In this document: piece after piece, positions 1-34,905 of the stretch
Position numbering within the stretch: the stretch's first letter is position 1
How the letters are laid out: every line of letters starts with the position of its first letter
Program-made: the position numbers and the translations under genes
Origin: an uncultured Bacteroidota bacterium
Lineage (GTDB): Bacteria; Bacteroidota; Bacteroidia; Flavobacteriales; Flavobacteriaceae
Reading direction: 5' to 3'
Assembly (NCBI GenBank): GCA_902511755.1
Contig: CABXGL010000011.1
Span: 1 to 43,730, forward strand
Length of the DNA stretch: 43,730 bases
Notes under the pieces: generated by a model
Database searches by the model: none
The model's input: the letters and a program-made list of their open reading frames with translations, nothing else
Told to the model about the DNA's origin: nothing

Positions 1-337
1 TTAATTCAAGTGTAAAATGAGTTTCTTTTTCTTCTACTTTTATATGAGCAACCACATCATTTTCAAAGTTTAATATTATTTCATTCCTATTTAACGAAGC
101 AAATATTGGATGCAAAATTTGATTATCAATTCGAATTGACATTACAGAAACTATGGTGTCTTTTGAAATGTAATCTTTGCCATTTTTTACATCAATAAAA
201 TTTACAAATGCTCCCTTATCATTTATGGTGGTTTTTAATGAATTTGTTGTGATATCAATGATTTTTTTATTTGGGTCTCTTGAGCAAGAGATAAATACTA
301 TGTTAAGTAATAATGAAATTATAATTATTTTTTTCAT
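1..337 (-). CDS. Partial lipoprotein, N-terminal part only
   Basis: An open frame begins at an ATG (complement of 335-337) and runs off the left edge without a stop, giving about 112 residues. The N-terminus is a lipoprotein signal: a short basic start, a hydrophobic stretch, and a lipobox VFISC with Cys near residue 18. The mature part is beta-rich in appearance, with phrases such as INDKGAFVNF and ILNFENDVVAHI. These resemble the N-terminal beta-sandwich of some Bacteroidota glycoside hydrolases, but that is only an impression and I do not recognise the family. The gene starts 36 nt from the displaced ssrA repeat, so it is probably the resident chromosomal neighbour of the ssrA locus. Confidence 0.7.
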   Translation of the reverse strand, partial: MKKIIIISLLLNIVFISCSRDPNKKIIDITTNSLKTTINDKGAFVNFIDVKNGKDYISKDTIVSVMSIRIDNQILHPIFASLNRNEIILNFENDVVAHIKVEEKETHFTLEL

Positions 338-372
338 CTATTTATAAATATAGTAATAAGGATGTAGATTAA

Positions 373-438
373 GGCAACCAAAAATAAAAACCCCTGTAAA
401 TCAGTGACTTACAAGGGTATTGGTGGAGTCGGAGGGAA
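373..438. repeat. Direct repeat, displaced ssrA 3' end (distal att-like copy)
   Basis: This 66-bp segment matches 2451-2516 except for one A/T change near its twelfth base. It contains the tmRNA terminator palindrome (391-417) and the final 18 nt of the tmRNA gene including the CCA complement (421-438). The match then stops abruptly: the next bases are CGCCAATCG, where the real tmRNA continues with its T-loop. It is therefore a gene fragment, not a second tmRNA. Confidence 0.85.
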
Positions 439-725
439 CGCCAATCGTGCAATATAACTCATGTTAAATACCTTTTAAATCATACATTATATCAGAAAAT
501 TACAACAATAACAGAATAAAACTGTTAAGTCTATTATTGCGTTATATTTCATGAAATTGTATAAATTTTCAATTCACCGTACAAGTACCGTACAAGTTTT
601 GATTAAATATATTATATTTAATAGATACTTAATATTCTCCTTTAATATAATGGCTTTAGTAAACTTTTTATATCATTAATAAAAAAATATTTAACAATGA
701 AAAACGTATTTTATTAACTATTAAT
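439..725. other. Non-coding AT-rich stretch inside the ssrA island
   Basis: No convincing reading frame was found on either strand in this stretch. It holds a tandem 11-bp repeat (576-597) and the leader of the downstream lipoprotein gene. The last part before the ATG at 726 is very A+T rich, with no recognisable ribosome binding site, which is usual in this phylum. No clear TAnnTTTG box was seen. Confidence 0.5.
576..597. repeat. Tandem 11-bp direct repeat, possible integrase arm site
   Basis: The 11-mer ACCGTACAAGT occurs twice back to back (576-586 and 587-597). It lies about 140 bp inside the left att-like repeat. One helical turn between identical short motifs close to an attachment site is typical of arm-type binding sites of tyrosine recombinases. 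That role is inference. Confidence 0.45.
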
Positions 726-2132
726 ATGAAGAAAATTTTATTCTTGTTTTACGTTTTATTTCTAGTTTCTTGTGAGGAAAATTCTGTTTTATATATGTTA
801 ACTACTTCATCTAGTCCTGTTGAGGGCGGTGAAGTTCTTCCAGAAACTAGACAATATAATGCAGGAGATACCGCTAAGCTCTTTGCCGTTCCATCAGCAG
901 AATATGTTTTTGAAAGTTGGACAGGAGCGGCTGGAACCGATGAAACTACTATTGTAATGGATTCTGATAAAACTGTAGTTGCAAATTTTGTTAAAAAGAA
1001 ATATGCTTTAACAACAACAGTTGAAGGTGAAGGTGCTGTTAGTGAAAAAGTAATTAAAGCGGGAGTTTCTACGGATTATAATAATGGAACTATTTTAGAG
1101 CTTACGGCTAATCCGGAAGTAGAATGGGTATTTAAAGAATGGACTGGTGACTTAACAGGCACTGAAAATCCGAAAGAAATAACAATAGATAAAGCCAAAA
1201 CAGTGAAAGCTGTATTTGAAGAACAATCTCCTTTTTATTTAGACGAAAATGGGATAACCATTAAAGCTAGAGATTGGGTGACAGTTGGAACAATAGGAGA
1301 ATTAGGTGGTGTTACTTATACGGCTGTAGATAATACAATTTTAAAATCAATGGCAGATAAAAATCAAGATGTGACTAAAGTAGTGACTACGCTTGTGACT
1401 GATATGACTAGTCTATTTATGGATGCTACAGGATTCAATCAGAATATTTCAAGCTGGGATACAAGCAATGTGACTTCTATGTATTTTATGTTTAGATCCA
1501 CTGCTTTTAATCAAAATATTGGAAGTTGGGATGTGAGTAAGGTAACTGATATGGGAAGTGTGTTCCGTCTTGCAACTGCATTTAATAAAGATATTGGAGG
1601 CTGGGATGTAAGTAAAGTTAATGACATGGGAAACATGTTTTTAAACACATCTACATTTAATCAAGACCTCACTAAATGGTGTGTTACTAATATTACGAGT
1701 GAACCTAAAGGATTCAGCACTTCATCTGCTTTAACAGAGGCTAATAAACCTGTTTGGGGTACTTGTCCTAGCAGCAACTCCGACGATCCTATTATTGGAA
1801 CTTGGAGACTGACTAATGAGGTCTGGGTTGGTGAAGGTGATTGGCCAGAAAATCAGGCAAGAGGGTGCTTTAAAGATGGAGATGAAGGCTCACCAGATCA
1901 ATATATTTTTACTAAAACTTCTGTAACAAAAAAAGTTTGGGAATGTGATCAAGATGGTAAGTTAAAGGTTGATTTAGTAACATATGGTCCATTTAGTTGG
2001 TCAAACTTAGGTAATGGTAGTTACTCATGGGCTGGAGGAACAATTCAAGTTACTTTCGAAAACAACAACGTAATAATGAAACTTCCTTTTGATGATGGGA
2101 ATATTACTCAGACTTGGGAAAGAAATGAATAG
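726..2132 (+). CDS. BspA-type DUF285 lipoprotein with InlB-like repeats and lipocalin-like end
   Basis: The 468-residue product starts with a lipoprotein signal peptide whose lipobox FLVSC puts Cys at residue 16. Two InlB B-type repeats follow at about residues 22-90 and 91-168, recognisable by FESWTGAAG...VVANF and FKEWTGDLTG...VKAVF. Residues about 215-345 carry DUF285 (BspA-type) repeats built on FNQNI..WDVSKVTDM. The last 120 residues begin IIGTWRL and end in a beta-strand pattern like small lipocalin-like domains. Such proteins are surface exposed and thought to mediate adhesion or protein contact, but no specific ligand can be named. It is the only gene inside the ssrA island and so its likely cargo. 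The lipoprotein start fixes the ATG. Confidence 0.85.
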   Translation: MKKILFLFYVLFLVSCEENSVLYMLTTSSSPVEGGEVLPETRQYNAGDTAKLFAVPSAEYVFESWTGAAGTDETTIVMDSDKTVVANFVKKKYALTTTVEGEGAVSEKVIKAGVSTDYNNGTILELTANPEVEWVFKEWTGDLTGTENPKEITIDKAKTVKAVFEEQSPFYLDENGITIKARDWVTVGTIGELGGVTYTAVDNTILKSMADKNQDVTKVVTTLVTDMTSLFMDATGFNQNISSWDTSNVTSMYFMFRSTAFNQNIGSWDVSKVTDMGSVFRLATAFNKDIGGWDVSKVNDMGNMFLNTSTFNQDLTKWCVTNITSEPKGFSTSSALTEANKPVWGTCPSSNSDDPIIGTWRLTNEVWVGEGDWPENQARGCFKDGDEGSPDQYIFTKTSVTKKVWECDQDGKLKVDLVTYGPFSWSNLGNGSYSWAGGTIQVTFENNNVIMKLPFDDGNITQTWERNE

Positions 2133-2450
2133 TTTATTTATAAAGTTTACTTGGTATTTGAAAAACTCAATATTTTGAGTCTCCAATGGAAATAACAGAT
2201 TTGTATTACAGTTTTTCTTTAAAAGGAAGTTCAAAAGCTATTAGGTTTATTGATTAACCATAGGCATATCTTCTTCTTTTAATTCAGACACTCAGAACCT
2301 TACTATTATACATAGTTATACGAATACAGCCCATCATAAGAAAATCGATATTATATAAGTAGGGTAGCGCCAATTAAAAATTACTATTGAGATTTTTTGA
2401 CTTTTTGTTATAACTTAGTGTTAGTTAAAAGCAGTAAAGGCAACGATTCA
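2133..2450. other. Non-coding right part of the ssrA island
   Basis: No gene of credible length is seen. The stretch contains a copy of a short element also found near tRNA-His (2254-2287). Next to the right att-like repeat it contains a second GGCAAC motif (2439-2444) spaced 12 bp from the one that opens the repeat (2451-2456). The minus-strand frame over 2025-2234 is antisense to the lipoprotein end and has no gene-like features. Confidence 0.5.
2254..2287. repeat. Shared short element, copy A
   Basis: The core from TAGGCATATCTTCTTC to the end at 2287 is identical over 27 bp to 34008-34034, in the pocket beside tRNA-His 31.7 kb away. The left part AACCATAGGC also matches the third copy at 34427-34436. 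It lies about 120 bp after the stop of the island lipoprotein gene. Read on the minus strand it encodes the short tail ELKEEDMP followed by a stop, so it may be a gene-end relic instead of a DNA site. Confidence 0.6.
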
Positions 2451-2516
2451 GGCAACCAAAATTAAAAACCCCTGTAAATCAGTGACTTACAAGGGTATTG
2501 GTGGAGTCGGAGGGAA
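2451..2516. repeat. Direct repeat, ssrA-proximal att-like copy
   Basis: This copy contains the functional tmRNA 3' terminus and its terminator. It begins GGCAACC and pairs with 373-438 (65/66 identical). Its outer boundary, where identity stops, is inside the tmRNA 3' acceptor/T-stem region at 2516, the usual place for recombination at tmRNA genes. Confidence 0.85.
2464..2495 (-). terminator. Intrinsic terminator of ssrA
   Basis: On the minus strand CCCTTGTAA and TTACAGGGG form the stem, and the inner bases GTCA/TGAT can extend it to a nearly perfect 13-bp palindrome. A short T tract follows at 2468-2464. It starts only 3 nt after the tmRNA CCA end. Almost the same sequence ends the tRNA-Glu gene at 20221-20253. 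Confidence 0.8.
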
Positions 2517-2896
2517 TCGAACCCTCGTCCAAACAAGCGACAAAATAGCTTTCTACAGATTTAGTTTTCAATTAATTTTCGATAATATTCTGACTGAAAA
2601 CTGCCTAAATATTACTTAGCTTTTTTATTTTAAAACCTTACCAAAGCCTTAAGATTTCTATGTTGACTTTAATGGTATCTCATAATGAATCGCCGTCAAC
2701 AAAGGCTATTCTGAGACATCTTACCTTCCCGCCTAGCGGGACAAGGCCTTAACTTACTATAATTCAGTTATTAGGCTGCAAGAGCGTAATTGTTTTCGCC
2801 ATTTAAAGTTTGGTACTAGAATATTTACGAGCTATAGTCCAGAGCTCGATCTGCTTACCATTAAATCGGACTCGCTGTCAAAACCAGTCGACCCCA
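2499..2896 (-). ncRNA. ssrA: Transfer-messenger RNA (tmRNA)
   Basis: tmRNA rescues stalled ribosomes and tags the incomplete protein for proteolysis. The 5' end begins GGGGUCGACUGGUUUUGACAG (complement of 2896 downwards). The 3' end folds into the tRNA-like T arm GAGGGTTCGATTCCCTC and acceptor GACTCCACCA, with CCA encoded at 2501-2499. The tag frame lies at complement 2800-2771 and reads GENNYALAA followed by UAA, the form common in Flavobacteriia. Length is about 398 nt. Its 3' end is duplicated at 373-438. A minus-strand TATATTTG box (2938-2931) lies 34 nt upstream of the mature 5' end and could drive a precursor. Confidence 0.97.
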
Positions 2897-20141: not shown

Positions 20142-20213
20142 GGCCCGTTCGTCTATCGGCTAGGACGCCAGGTTTTCATCCTGGTAAGAGGGGTTCGATT
20201 CCCCTACGGGCTA
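20142..20213 (+). tRNA. tRNA-Glu (anticodon UUC)
   Basis: The cloverleaf is complete. It has a D arm with TCTATCGGCTAGGA, anticodon stem CCAGG/CCTGG with loop TTTTCAT (anticodon TTC), and T arm GGGG-TTCGATT-CCCC. The acceptor is GGCCCGT/ACGGGCT, with a G:U first pair and discriminator A. CCA is not encoded. Confidence 0.95.
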
Positions 20214-20220
20214 CTAAAAT

Positions 20221-20253
20221 CCTTGTAAGTCATTGATTTACAGGGTTTTTTTT
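20221..20253 (+). terminator. Intrinsic terminator of tRNA-Glu
   Basis: CCTTGTAA and TTACAGGG form the stem, and eight T follow. The sequence is 23/24 identical to the ssrA terminator, including the loop bases GTCA.TGAT that a terminator does not need. It overlaps the 3' end of the convergent hydrolase gene. Confidence 0.8.
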
Positions 20254-21319
20254 ATTGGTATATAGAACTAGATAAATGATTTTTAAAAGTAGATGAATTA
20301 TATATGTCATTTGCATTATGTCCAACTTGTTGAACTATTAACCTTTTATGATTGTGAGTAGACTTATAATATTCCTCAAAATATTTTTGAATGTAAAGGC
20401 TTCTTTTATTTCTGTTTTCTCCTAAAAGAATAGCTTCACAATCTTTAGTATTAAGTGTGCCAGTAGTTGAGGTATCATCTTCACCTTGAAGATAAATTGT
20501 TCTTCTCTTTATCTGATTTTCTTTTAGAATTGATTCAGAAGAGTTTTTAGAATAATTTATGATATTAGCATATCCATAAGGCCAATTGGAAATTCCATTA
20601 CAAGTTGAAGGAGAATAAAAACTATTAATATTTGAATCATATCTTTTTGAATCAGGATAACAATAATATTGACTGTTTGCTATAATGTATTGAAAATTAT
20701 AACTGCTCGATGTAGTCTCTGATTTTCCAGATATTGCATATAAATGAGCATATGTTCCTCCAGAAGAATGGCCAGTAATTACTATATTTTTTAATGATGG
20801 AAAATTACCTTGGTTTTTAATTTTATTAATTACTTCATCAATCATTTTAAATGAACTAATATTAATATTTTGGTTATCAGAATCTGCACCTTCTCTCCAA
20901 GAAGATGTATTCCAGAATAATTCATTTGTGCTTGCTGAAAGATTATCTTTAAAATGCATTGAAATTATTAGAGTTTCATCTTGTTTATTTAGGTTGCTAA
21001 TTGAATTATTCATATAACTAAAGTATGGTCCAGCAGTTCGACTAACTCCATGAATTAGAAAAATTACAGATTTTATTTTTGCCCATTTTTTATTTGATTT
21101 TGAAACAAAATCATAATTTGAATAGAAACTAAAATGATTTCCTTCTGAGTTAATAATTAATTTTTCTATACAATCATTTGAGTCAGATATGCAGGGTTTG
21201 TTATCATTAAGAGTCGGAGAATTGTCTTCTGTTGATTCAGAATTAGAAGAACAAGAAAAAATAAATAATAATAGAAATAAAGTTAAATACTTATAGGAAA
21301 GAGTTAGGCCTTTTAGCAT
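20252..21319 (-). CDS. Lipoprotein alpha/beta hydrolase
   Basis: The 355-residue product has a lipoprotein signal (lipobox IFSC, Cys23), so it is probably membrane anchored outside the cytoplasm. The alpha/beta-hydrolase core shows an oxyanion HG motif (FLIHGVS, residues 88-94), the nucleophile elbow GHSSG with Ser185, and a late His334 in VGHNAND as the likely catalytic base. An acidic partner is probably near EDDTSTTG. The substrate is unknown; esterase, lipase-like or peptidase activity are all possible. The gene is wedged between tRNA-Glu and rpsT and its stop lies in the tRNA terminator, so it looks like an accessory insertion in an otherwise core block. Confidence 0.8.
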   Translation of the reverse strand: MLKGLTLSYKYLTLFLLLFIFSCSSNSESTEDNSPTLNDNKPCISDSNDCIEKLIINSEGNHFSFYSNYDFVSKSNKKWAKIKSVIFLIHGVSRTAGPYFSYMNNSISNLNKQDETLIISMHFKDNLSASTNELFWNTSSWREGADSDNQNINISSFKMIDEVINKIKNQGNFPSLKNIVITGHSSGGTYAHLYAISGKSETTSSSYNFQYIIANSQYYCYPDSKRYDSNINSFYSPSTCNGISNWPYGYANIINYSKNSSESILKENQIKRRTIYLQGEDDTSTTGTLNTKDCEAILLGENRNKRSLYIQKYFEEYYKSTHNHKRLIVQQVGHNANDIYNSSTFKNHLSSSIYQ

Positions 21320-33687: not shown

Positions 33688-33763
33688 GGTGGTTGTAGTT
33701 CAGTTGGTTAGAACGCCTGATTGTGGTTCAGGAGGTCGCCGGTTCGAGTCCGGTCTTCCACCC
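33688..33763 (+). tRNA. tRNA-His (anticodon GUG)
   Basis: The cloverleaf has D stem GTTC/GAAC, anticodon stem CCTGA/TCAGG with loop TTGTGGT (anticodon GTG), and T arm GCCGG-TTCGAGT-CCGGT. G-1 pairs with discriminator C73, as expected for tRNA-His. In the acceptor stem, pairs 5:68 and 6:67 are both U:U mismatches (5' half GTGGTTG, 3' half CTTCCAC), which is odd. CCA is not encoded. Confidence 0.93.
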
Positions 33764-33772
33764 AAAAGTAAG

Positions 33773-33797
33773 CCCTCGAGTAATCGGGGGTTTTTTT
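33773..33797 (+). terminator. Intrinsic terminator of tRNA-His
   Basis: CCCTCGA and TCGGGGG form a 7-bp stem with a GTAA loop, followed by seven T. Confidence 0.85.
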
Positions 33798-33840
33798 GTT
33801 TAGATATTTGACAAAGAACTTACTTAAAGTTACAAAATCT

Positions 33841-33860
33841 TGGCAACTATTTGGCAACTA
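33841..33860. repeat. Two phased TGGCAACTA repeats, possible integrase arm sites
   Basis: TGGCAACTA occurs at 33841-33849 and 33852-33860, an 11-bp period, about 80 bp after tRNA-His. GGCAAC also occurs twice at a 12-bp period at the right end of the ssrA island. A role as recombinase arm sites is inference. Confidence 0.45.
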
Positions 33861-33864
33861 CAAC

Positions 33865-33996
33865 TTCTCAATTAAATTTTTAGATAAAGCACGAAATCAA
33901 TCTATAGAAACCCAATCCAAATTAGAGGAGCAGTTGGTTTACTTAAAACAGTTAAAATCCTCTATACTTAGTAAAGCATTTAAAGGTGAGTTATGA
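33865..33996 (+). pseudogene. 3' remnant of a type I restriction specificity gene (hsdS)
   Basis: The reading frame ends with FLDKARNQSIETQSKLEEQ followed by LVYLKQLKSSILSKAFKGEL and a stop. This is the C-terminal coiled coil and closing motif of HsdS subunits of type I restriction-modification enzymes. Full HsdS proteins have about 400 residues; only about 43 remain. Upstream the frame opens at a TTG in the tRNA terminator and reads unrelated sequence, so the gene is truncated. No hsdM or hsdR is present. It is the trace of a defence locus once at tRNA-His. Confidence 0.75.
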
Positions 33997-34003
33997 GGGT
34001 TTT

Positions 34004-34034
34004 ATTTTAGGCATATCTTCTTCTTTTAATTCAG
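34004..34034. repeat. Shared short element, copy B
   Basis: Bases 34008-34034 are identical to 2261-2287. The element begins 8 nt after the hsdS remnant stop. On the minus strand it reads ELKEEDMPKIKPS and a stop. Confidence 0.65.
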
Positions 34035-34053
34035 CAATTCTTATATTTAGGTT

Positions 34054-34404
34054 GTGAAAAAACTACTTCTACTATTACTGTTTATTCCACTTGTTTCTTG
34101 TCAAAATGATGTGGATGAAGAAGTTATTAATAATCAATCTGATCCTTTTGTTTCAATCAAATATGCCTCTTTTCAATATAGCATAGGTGGATCTTATGGA
34201 AGTCAAGTTAACTTCACTCATAAAGATTATCAAAACAATAATTTTAATTATTGTGGCTGTATGGCCTGTAACACTAATTCATATATTGTTGAAGAACTCT
34301 ATTATGATAAAAGCACATCAACAATAAAATATAAAATCTTAGGGGAAGAATCATATACTTTAGCGGTTTATGGATCAAAATGGAGCTGCAAAAAATATGA
34401 ATAA
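34054..34404 (+). CDS. Small lipoprotein of unknown function
   Basis: The 116-residue product starts at a GTG: MKKLLLLLLFIPLVSCQND, with a clear lipobox LVSC (Cys16). The mature part contains the cluster YCGCMACNTNSY and a later SCKKYE, giving four further cysteines that could form disulfides or bind metal. I know no family for it. The start codon lies 5 nt after a TATATTT box (34042-34048), inside the tRNA-His accessory pocket, between two copies of the shared short element. Confidence 0.75.
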   Translation: MKKLLLLLLFIPLVSCQNDVDEEVINNQSDPFVSIKYASFQYSIGGSYGSQVNFTHKDYQNNNFNYCGCMACNTNSYIVEELYYDKSTSTIKYKILGEESYTLAVYGSKWSCKKYE

Positions 34405-34422
34405 AACTGCTAAGTAATAACT

Positions 34423-34457
34423 CCTAAACCATAGGCTTATCTACTTCTTTTAAAATT
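34423..34457. repeat. Shared short element, copy C
   Basis: CCTAAACCATAG (34423-34434) is shared with copy D. The stretch 34427-34453 matches copy A except for two substitutions in the TAGGC.TATCT.CTTCTTTTAA core. It begins 18 nt after the stop of the small lipoprotein gene. The minus strand reads LKEVDKPMV and a stop. Confidence 0.6.
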
Positions 34458-34473
34458 ATTGTAAATTGTACTT

Positions 34474-34905
34474 ATGAATAATATATTAGAACTTCATTCA
34501 TTATGGGCATTACCTACTTTATTGGTTAGTTTAATCACAATTCTTAAATTTTTGTATTCTTTTATCTTAAATGAGGAATTCAAAACAGTGGACTTTAGAA
34601 TAGCATTAATTACTTTGATTTTTAACCATATACAATTAGCAATAGGAATTATTCTATATTATACCTCACCAAAATTTGATTGGTGGAGCGAAGGGATGTC
34701 TTCCGTTATGTCTAACTCCGTTTACCGTCAACATTTAGTTGAACATCCAACAACTAATATTATAGGTGTTTTAATTATAACGGTGGGGTGGTCAATTCAT
34801 AAAAGAACAAATGAAGATTCAAAAAAGTTTTTAAGAATTGGGGTTTTTTATTTTATAGGCCTTGTGCTTATCTTAAGTAGGATTCCTTGGGAGAATTGGC
34901 TGTAA
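34474..34905 (+). CDS. Four-helix membrane protein, cytochrome b-like family
   Basis: The 143-residue product has four hydrophobic helices. His8 lies in LHSLW, a second His in IFNHIQLAIGIILYYTSP, and a further one in the EHPTTNI segment before helix 3. The end is SRIPWENWL. This pattern matches a family of small Bacteroidota membrane proteins often labelled 'cytochrome B', in which the conserved His could hold haem, but no function is established. The ATG lies 5 nt after TAAATTG (34462-34468), which may be a -7 box. Confidence 0.7.
   Translation: MNNILELHSLWALPTLLVSLITILKFLYSFILNEEFKTVDFRIALITLIFNHIQLAIGIILYYTSPKFDWWSEGMSSVMSNSVYRQHLVEHPTTNIIGVLIITVGWSIHKRTNEDSKKFLRIGVFYFIGLVLILSRIPWENWL

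Follow-up and report, generated by a model that had tools for sequence, protein, structure and literature searches.

A small integrase-less island at the 3' end of ssrA with arm repeats of two types

Introduction

Elements of the CIME class have att sites on both sides and no integrase, and lie next to a related integrase-bearing element that can mobilize both. The class is named in a study of Dehalococcoides (PMC3146451), which describes ssrA-specific islands that stand in tandem downstream of ssrA, are inserted at the T-loop and are bounded by ssrA or by a short repeat of its 3' end; some of them have no integration module and were suggested to be cis-mobilizable. Islander islands lie in tRNA and tmRNA genes; a regenerated gene and a displaced fragment mark their two ends, and tmRNA is an enriched target (PMC4383910). 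A Riemerella island adjoins tRNA-Arg, not tmRNA (PMC6764341).

The locus described here lies beside the tmRNA gene of a flavobacterium. It shares with the Dehalococcoides islands the tandem position at ssrA, the 3'-end repeats as bounds and the absence, there in some islands, of an integration module. However, the Dehalococcoides islands have CcrB-related serine recombinases and 20-bp repeats, whereas the present locus has arms of the tyrosine-integrase kind, 72-bp repeats, one gene and mixed ends. Like the Islander islands, it has a regenerated ssrA and a displaced fragment, but Islander requires an integrase gene in the interval (PMC4383910) and would therefore miss it. With CIMEs it shares att sites on both sides and the lack of an integrase, and it differs from them in having two ends of different type; its left side is visible for only 366 bp before the contig ends, with no integrase there. 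Tandem and integrase-less ssrA islands, as well as tDNA islands, have already been described, while mixed ends and cargo slots common to tRNA-Ser and tmRNA are new as far as our searches go. Among the titles and abstracts covered, a partial sample and hence a weak negative, none dealt with ssrA islands in this clade or with arrays of integrase 3' ends.

Results

We analyzed one whole contig from start to end (G000:C11, 43,730 nt; hereafter the window), which belongs to a genome in 57 contigs that is given as 68% complete. A repeat search of the window returned one direct repeat pair, 72 bp long and 97% identical (367-438 and 2445-2516), with the longest exact run common to both copies beginning at 385 and 2463. 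The original prediction had described two 66-bp repeats with 65 identical positions, and by reading the sequence we counted exactly one difference across this span. One complete tmRNA is present on the minus strand (2499-2895; ARAGORN and Rfam RF00023, 153.6 bits). The two tools agree with the predicted layout, in which each repeat copy contains the last 18 nt of ssrA and its terminator next to one full tmRNA. The features of the locus are as follows.

2..337, minus strand: 5' part of an 814-aa-type gene that the contig end truncates; cargo of the adjoining outer element
367..438, minus strand: distal att copy, with the displaced 18-nt ssrA 3' end, terminator A and 13 bp of A-type arm (367-379)
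576..597, minus strand: direct repeat ACTTGTACGGTACTTGTACGGT of a B-type arm; 142 bp separate it from the displaced ssrA end; counterparts in G026, G158 and G033
726..2132, plus strand: cargo lipoprotein gene, 468 aa, with InlB-type B repeats and DUF285
2254..2280, minus strand: M', which duplicates the 3' end of another, third integrase gene (translation ..ELKEEDMPMV)
2293..2406, minus strand: module U, about 115-125 bp, a dispersed repeat of the genus
2434..2457, minus strand: direct repeat GGTTGCCTGAATCGTTGCCTTTAC of the A-type arm that forms the ssrA-side end; a similar repeat adjoins integrase genes in G179 and G063
2445..2516, minus strand: ssrA-side att copy, with the last 18 nt of ssrA, terminator A and the first GTTGCC of the arm
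2499..2895, minus strand: intact ssrA (tmRNA), tag GENNYALAA

The interval between the copies holds one convincing gene, for the 468-aa lipoprotein, and its remaining open reading frames are of at most 69 aa. Neither the open reading frame list nor a domain search of the interval contained a recombinase gene, in agreement with the prediction of a single lipoprotein gene and no recombinase. The lipoprotein has two stretches of PF18998 and two of PF03382, and its PHROG matches are function-unknown entries; from its lipobox and domains, it probably acts at the cell surface. Relatives of this protein are abundant, with matches at E <= 1e-20 in 21 of 22 same-genus genomes, some of them domain-only, and 23 such matches in G015 alone (examples are G015:C1:614-619 kb and G000:C2:113.5 kb).

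The locus has the intact RNA gene and the displaced 3' fragment, in the same orientation, of a tDNA-targeting island, with no integrase gene inside the interval. Both attL and attR are present without a recombinase, as in a CIME. Genes for an integrase, replication or packaging interference, as found in phage satellites (PICI, tycheposon and others), are missing from the interval, which has the single lipoprotein gene.

In the 60 bp outside the copies, 20 positions match on either side. The duplication is therefore confined to the repeats with no outward extension, and an extension of the repeat through the flanks, named at the outset as evidence against insertion, was not seen. These non-matching flanks speak against a segmental duplication. 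An assembly artefact could be imagined, since the contig comes from a fragmentary genome, terminator A also follows tRNA-Ser, tRNA-Arg and tRNA-Glu, and repeats common to tRNA-Ser loci make a wrong join possible in principle. However, the flanks do not match and the same end anatomy recurs in independent genomes, and we consider an origin by duplication or artefact very improbable.

The distal end of the island (367-597) resembles the integrase end of a known type of element. The repeat ACTTGTACGGTACTTGTACGGT stands within the island at a distance of 142 bp from the displaced CTCCGACTCCACC, and at up to three mismatches it has no further site in the 22 same-genus genomes. A 21-bp form of this repeat, with up to two mismatches, was found in 8/199 family genomes, as compared with 3/199 for a reversed control. 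Besides that of the window there are seven matches, three of which adjoin an integrase gene (G158, G026, and G025) and two a tRNA 3' end (G109 and G135); the other two (G022 and G215) have neither in the 3 kb inspected. In G158 and G026 the B repeat is followed by a tmRNA 3' remnant. The gap between the repeat and CTCCGACTCCAC is 142 bp in the window, G026, G158, and G033, that is, in all four tmRNA cases measured, and the last three are integrase-bearing ssrA elements of other genera with the same kind of B repeat and the same spacing. This common distal anatomy supports the predicted site-specific insertion into ssrA.

We inspected 17 loci with relatives of the G026 integrase, from 16/199 genomes, for a B-type repeat. 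Such a repeat, at up to five mismatches, was present in nine of the 17. Eight of these nine loci had an RNA-gene-like end at a similar distance when the printed DNA was read by eye: three tmRNA (the three elements above), three tRNA-Leu-like, one tRNA-Ser-like and one other. The repeat was absent from the remaining eight loci, which mostly belong to more distant relatives.

The G026 element (L271) extends 7.1 kb from ssrA and encodes the integrase, which scores above the cut-off for PF13102 and below it for PF00589, together with a D5_N/DUF5906 protein and a DUF6371 protein. The island of the window has the same target, kind of direct repeat and 142-bp spacing, and likewise an ssrA-side terminator and arm. 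It differs in lacking these three genes and in its ssrA-side arm, which is A-type, whereas that of G026 is B-type. The best reading of the distal end is therefore that it is where a B-type element has its integrase side, the lipoprotein gene standing in the place of the integrase gene; the end is recognized here by its 22-bp repeat and spacing, without an adjoining integrase. By reading, the start codon of the lipoprotein gene is farther from the B repeat than that of the integrase gene.

At the ssrA side, the arm repeat consists of GTTGCC with a 12-bp period (full repeat GGTTGCCTGAATCGTTGCCTTTAC). A form of this repeat with up to two mismatches occurred in 6/299 family genomes versus 1/299 for the control, namely in three genomes of the window's genus and in G179, G063, and G129. 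Two of the three matches outside the genus adjoin an integrase. In G179 the neighbors of the repeat are an integrase gene of 411 aa and a tRNA-Ser-like remnant whose terminator is CCTTGTAAGT, and in G063 they are an integrase gene that appears to be interrupted and a remnant resembling tmRNA; the match in G129 falls inside an open frame resembling a transporter and is probably due to chance. The gap at these A-type ends is 127 bp in G179, 123 bp in G063 and again 127 bp, to a displaced tRNA-Ser end, in G019:C10, measured from slightly different anchors; in the G019:C10 island the distal arm alone is visible.

The two A-type integrases are 50% identical to each other over 299 aa, and A and B integrases are 30-32% identical over 224-275 aa. 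Since A and B are the arm types of two integrase families, the island, with one of each, is a hybrid. A non-autonomous element served by one integrase would have arm sites of that integrase at both ends; here the ssrA side has A and the distal end has B.

In the genus, terminators A and B and their arms occur behind tRNA-Ser as well as behind tmRNA. Arm content is not uniform there, because the displaced ends of G008 (ssrA) and G017:C8 (tRNA-Ser) are preceded by no recognizable repeat within 330 bp. As a separate observation, the terminator CCTTGTAAGTCATTGATTTACAGGG, loop included, follows tRNA-Glu, tRNA-Ser and tRNA-Arg genes (window 20142-20259, G000:C13 and C14), and the ssrA terminator of the window differs from it by one base.

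KdsA was used to locate ssrA in relatives, and 58 of 60 gave a match or a distant-relative match. Close matches in 17 of the 21 other same-genus genomes provided 17 stretches; a tmRNA is present in 16 of these (all except that of G001), which with the window makes 17 loci, examined over 1.8-13.6 kb downstream of ssrA. Within this DNA, the last 18 nt of ssrA recurred at up to three mismatches in two of the 17 loci, the window and G008, by a test that missed the displaced end of G026 with its four mismatches. The situation in which all relatives have the same two repeats, which would have pointed to another origin, was thus not found.

By reading, terminator A (ACCCTTGTAAGTCWYTGATTTACARGGG) follows ssrA in nine of the 17 loci, terminator B in three and something else in five. 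The arm GGTTGCCTGAATCGTTGCC comes after terminator A in five of the nine, one of which (G012) has it in a shortened form, so that an A-type end adjoins ssrA with differing cargo in 5/17 loci. In G002 and G014, conserved neighbor genes, which we take to be a small Kazal-like gene, an M28-like peptidase gene and a lycopene-cyclase-like gene, start 0.23 kb from ssrA. This block starts 0.9-5.7 kb from ssrA in four more loci, and for the cyclase-like gene of G010 the distance is 2.5 kb; in the examined DNA of the other ten loci the block was not found, with one 33% match to one neighbor in G019. Because the distance of the block differs between loci, the interval near ssrA is variable and near-empty sites exist. 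The proposed search for an empty site among the same-genus loci gave no such site in the strict sense, with the left flank of the window, as this flank is itself cargo and the contig ends.

The cargo behind ssrA differs among relatives. Six near-ssrA genes of relatives were tested, and five have known domains (CBM9, FGE-sulfatase with a dienelactone hydrolase domain, phytase, BNR, and peptidase M15), while one is without a family. In G010, G020, G012, and G019, 211-261 positions of the window's ssrA-side unit are kept at 90-91% identity and different genes follow. This pattern, together with the dispersed copies of U and M, could also be produced if homologous recombination of the ordinary kind, acting on repeated modules (terminator A, U, and M), had swapped the cargo between old, fixed ends. 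However, such swapping leaves unexplained the B-type repeat at exactly 142 bp and the displaced 18-nt ssrA end. Moreover, the identity of the shared unit lies between those of kdsA and ssrA (G010, G020, and G019), so that plain descent suffices too. We regard this explanation as decidedly unlikely.

The island could alternatively be a minimal non-autonomous element that remains able to excise and integrate when a phage or a larger element provides an integrase in trans. Consistent with this possibility, the island retains the two att copies and has an arm repeat at either end, the family contains related integrases that adjoin tmRNA and tRNA ends, and A-type ends adjoin ssrA with different cargo in the five same-genus loci above. 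PF00589 matches were found in 21 of the 22 same-genus genomes, and two strong matches of about 300 aa per genome were presumed to be XerC and XerD. Nine further matches comprised eight proteins (including one at 434 kb in G010) that we compared with the A and B integrases, and an M-type piece in G013. The best similarity to the B integrase was 31-33% (G009, G015, and G010) and that to A 25-30% over 163-195 aa, with one match of 38% over 91 aa; a translated search of 60 same-genus loci (0.76 Mb, overlapping) found nothing closer to either. The non-Xer PF00589 proteins of the window's own genome (C3 and C19) are neither A nor B type and were rejected as helpers, and in a close-relative search of viral contigs B had a single match, at 27%, while A had no match. 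No close relative of the A or B integrases was thus found in the same-genus DNA examined, a weak absence given genomes that are 51-93% complete and PF00589 as a weak detector, below whose cut-off the G026 integrase scores.

Ends that bear the arms of two integrase families speak against a trans-mobilized element, and we think it unlikely. The original prediction had offered either such a minimal element or the residue of a larger one, and it is the residue that the two different arm repeats favor.

Outward of the distal copy, terminator A and GGTTGCCTTAATC, the start of an A-type arm, are followed by a gene that runs into the contig end. This gene is present in 3/22 genomes, namely the window's own, G007, and G019. 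In G019 it sits behind a tRNA-Ser with terminator A and arm A, and there the full-length gene codes for 814 aa, with no Pfam match above the cut-off. Over 337 bp, the identity of the gene is 99.4% to G007 and 95.8% to G019, as compared with 91.8% and 80.0% for kdsA; the corresponding values for ssrA are 98.5% and 93.7%. In G007 the homology sets in with the start codon, in G019 17 bp earlier, and the DNA differs further upstream. An identity exceeding that of kdsA points to cargo that may have moved between species and between tRNA-Ser and tmRNA sites, an argument that depends on kdsA alone, as ssrA identity is also high.

Module U and M' sit between the ssrA-side arm and the lipoprotein gene. 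U was found at 38 places in 40 sequences searched, with variable flanks, and gave three matches only (E 0.2-5) in the integrase loci of other genera. We rejected U as an integron attC or structured RNA, since RNAalifold found no consensus fold for 34 of the 38 copies, although single copies do fold weakly. With RNAalifold on U, the sole candidate examined, a folded attC beside the gene, as in integron cassettes or CALIN, was thus not found.

The 27 bp of M' read as the end of the third integrase, and M copies stand between genes in arrays of the window's genus. A 77-aa query from the tail of this integrase gave 168 encoding stretches, the best 80 of which led to 78 loci, mostly from Flavobacteriales/Bacteroidetes by record title. 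A full-length integrase (at least 330 aa from ATG, one long fusion excluded) was present in 50 loci, and the other 28 were dropped. In these 50 loci there were 44 extra matches to the integrase gene; 37 fell within its last 120 bp, and 32 of the 37 were downstream in the same orientation. Twelve of the 44 do not fit this pattern, being longer or elsewhere in the gene, upstream, or reversed. All 35 extra matches downstream of the full-length integrase have its orientation. These arrays are a lead separate from the island, and recombination at M is putative.

Several further observations concern these arrays. Gene arrays split by copies of a tyrosine integrase gene's 3' end, mostly of 25-95 bp, occur at L104 (G000:C2 100-112 kb), L175, L179, L187, L191, L199, L212, and others. 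In the window's genus, the gene beside an M copy often stops at a TAA within the copy, and many array genes (L104, L053, and others) begin with the near-identical signal peptide MKKLLLLLLFIPLVSFGQ, followed by unrelated sequence. Elsewhere in the window (33689-34905), a tRNA-His with a terminator is accompanied by a direct repeat of the TTGGCAACTA type, two M-like sites (34008 and 34427) and two small genes, one of which begins MKKLLLLLLFIPLVSC. This region looks like another small integrase-less island; a second tRNA-His end was not found within the window.

Discussion

On balance, the island is probably a composite remnant of stacked ssrA insertions that kept cargo. Tyrosine integrases would have recombined circular elements with the T-arm end of ssrA, and with each arrival a new copy of the last 18 nt, together with a terminator, would have made ssrA whole again and shifted the previous fragment away from it. 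This would imply two arrivals at the least, and probably three: an A-type one outside the distal copy, carrying the 814-aa-type cargo; a B-type one, whose integrase-side end would be the island's distal end; and an A-type end that now faces ssrA. Deletion or recombination may then have joined the A-type ssrA-side end to the B-type distal end, removing the integrase genes and leaving the lipoprotein gene. The repeats, the two arm types with their integrase-bearing counterparts, the spacing and the high between-species identity of the outer cargo are observed; this order of events, the deletion and the hybrid's loss of self-mobility are what we infer. The composite reading is weakened by the occurrence of the exact hybrid in one genome only, with a fragmentary assembly.

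A broader idea, which we put forward as doubtful, is that the tRNA-Ser and tmRNA ends of the genus could be shared docking slots for integrase-free cargo shuffled by the integrases of passing elements, with the integrase-3'-end arrays acting as an integron-like cassette feeder.

Together, the fixed 142-bp spacing and the two arm repeats can serve as a key to search for islands without an integrase, which finders based on integrases miss. The anatomy of the island shows how small-genome flavobacteria can accumulate genes for surface proteins and polymer degradation at tmRNA and tRNA-Ser while retaining no recombinase.
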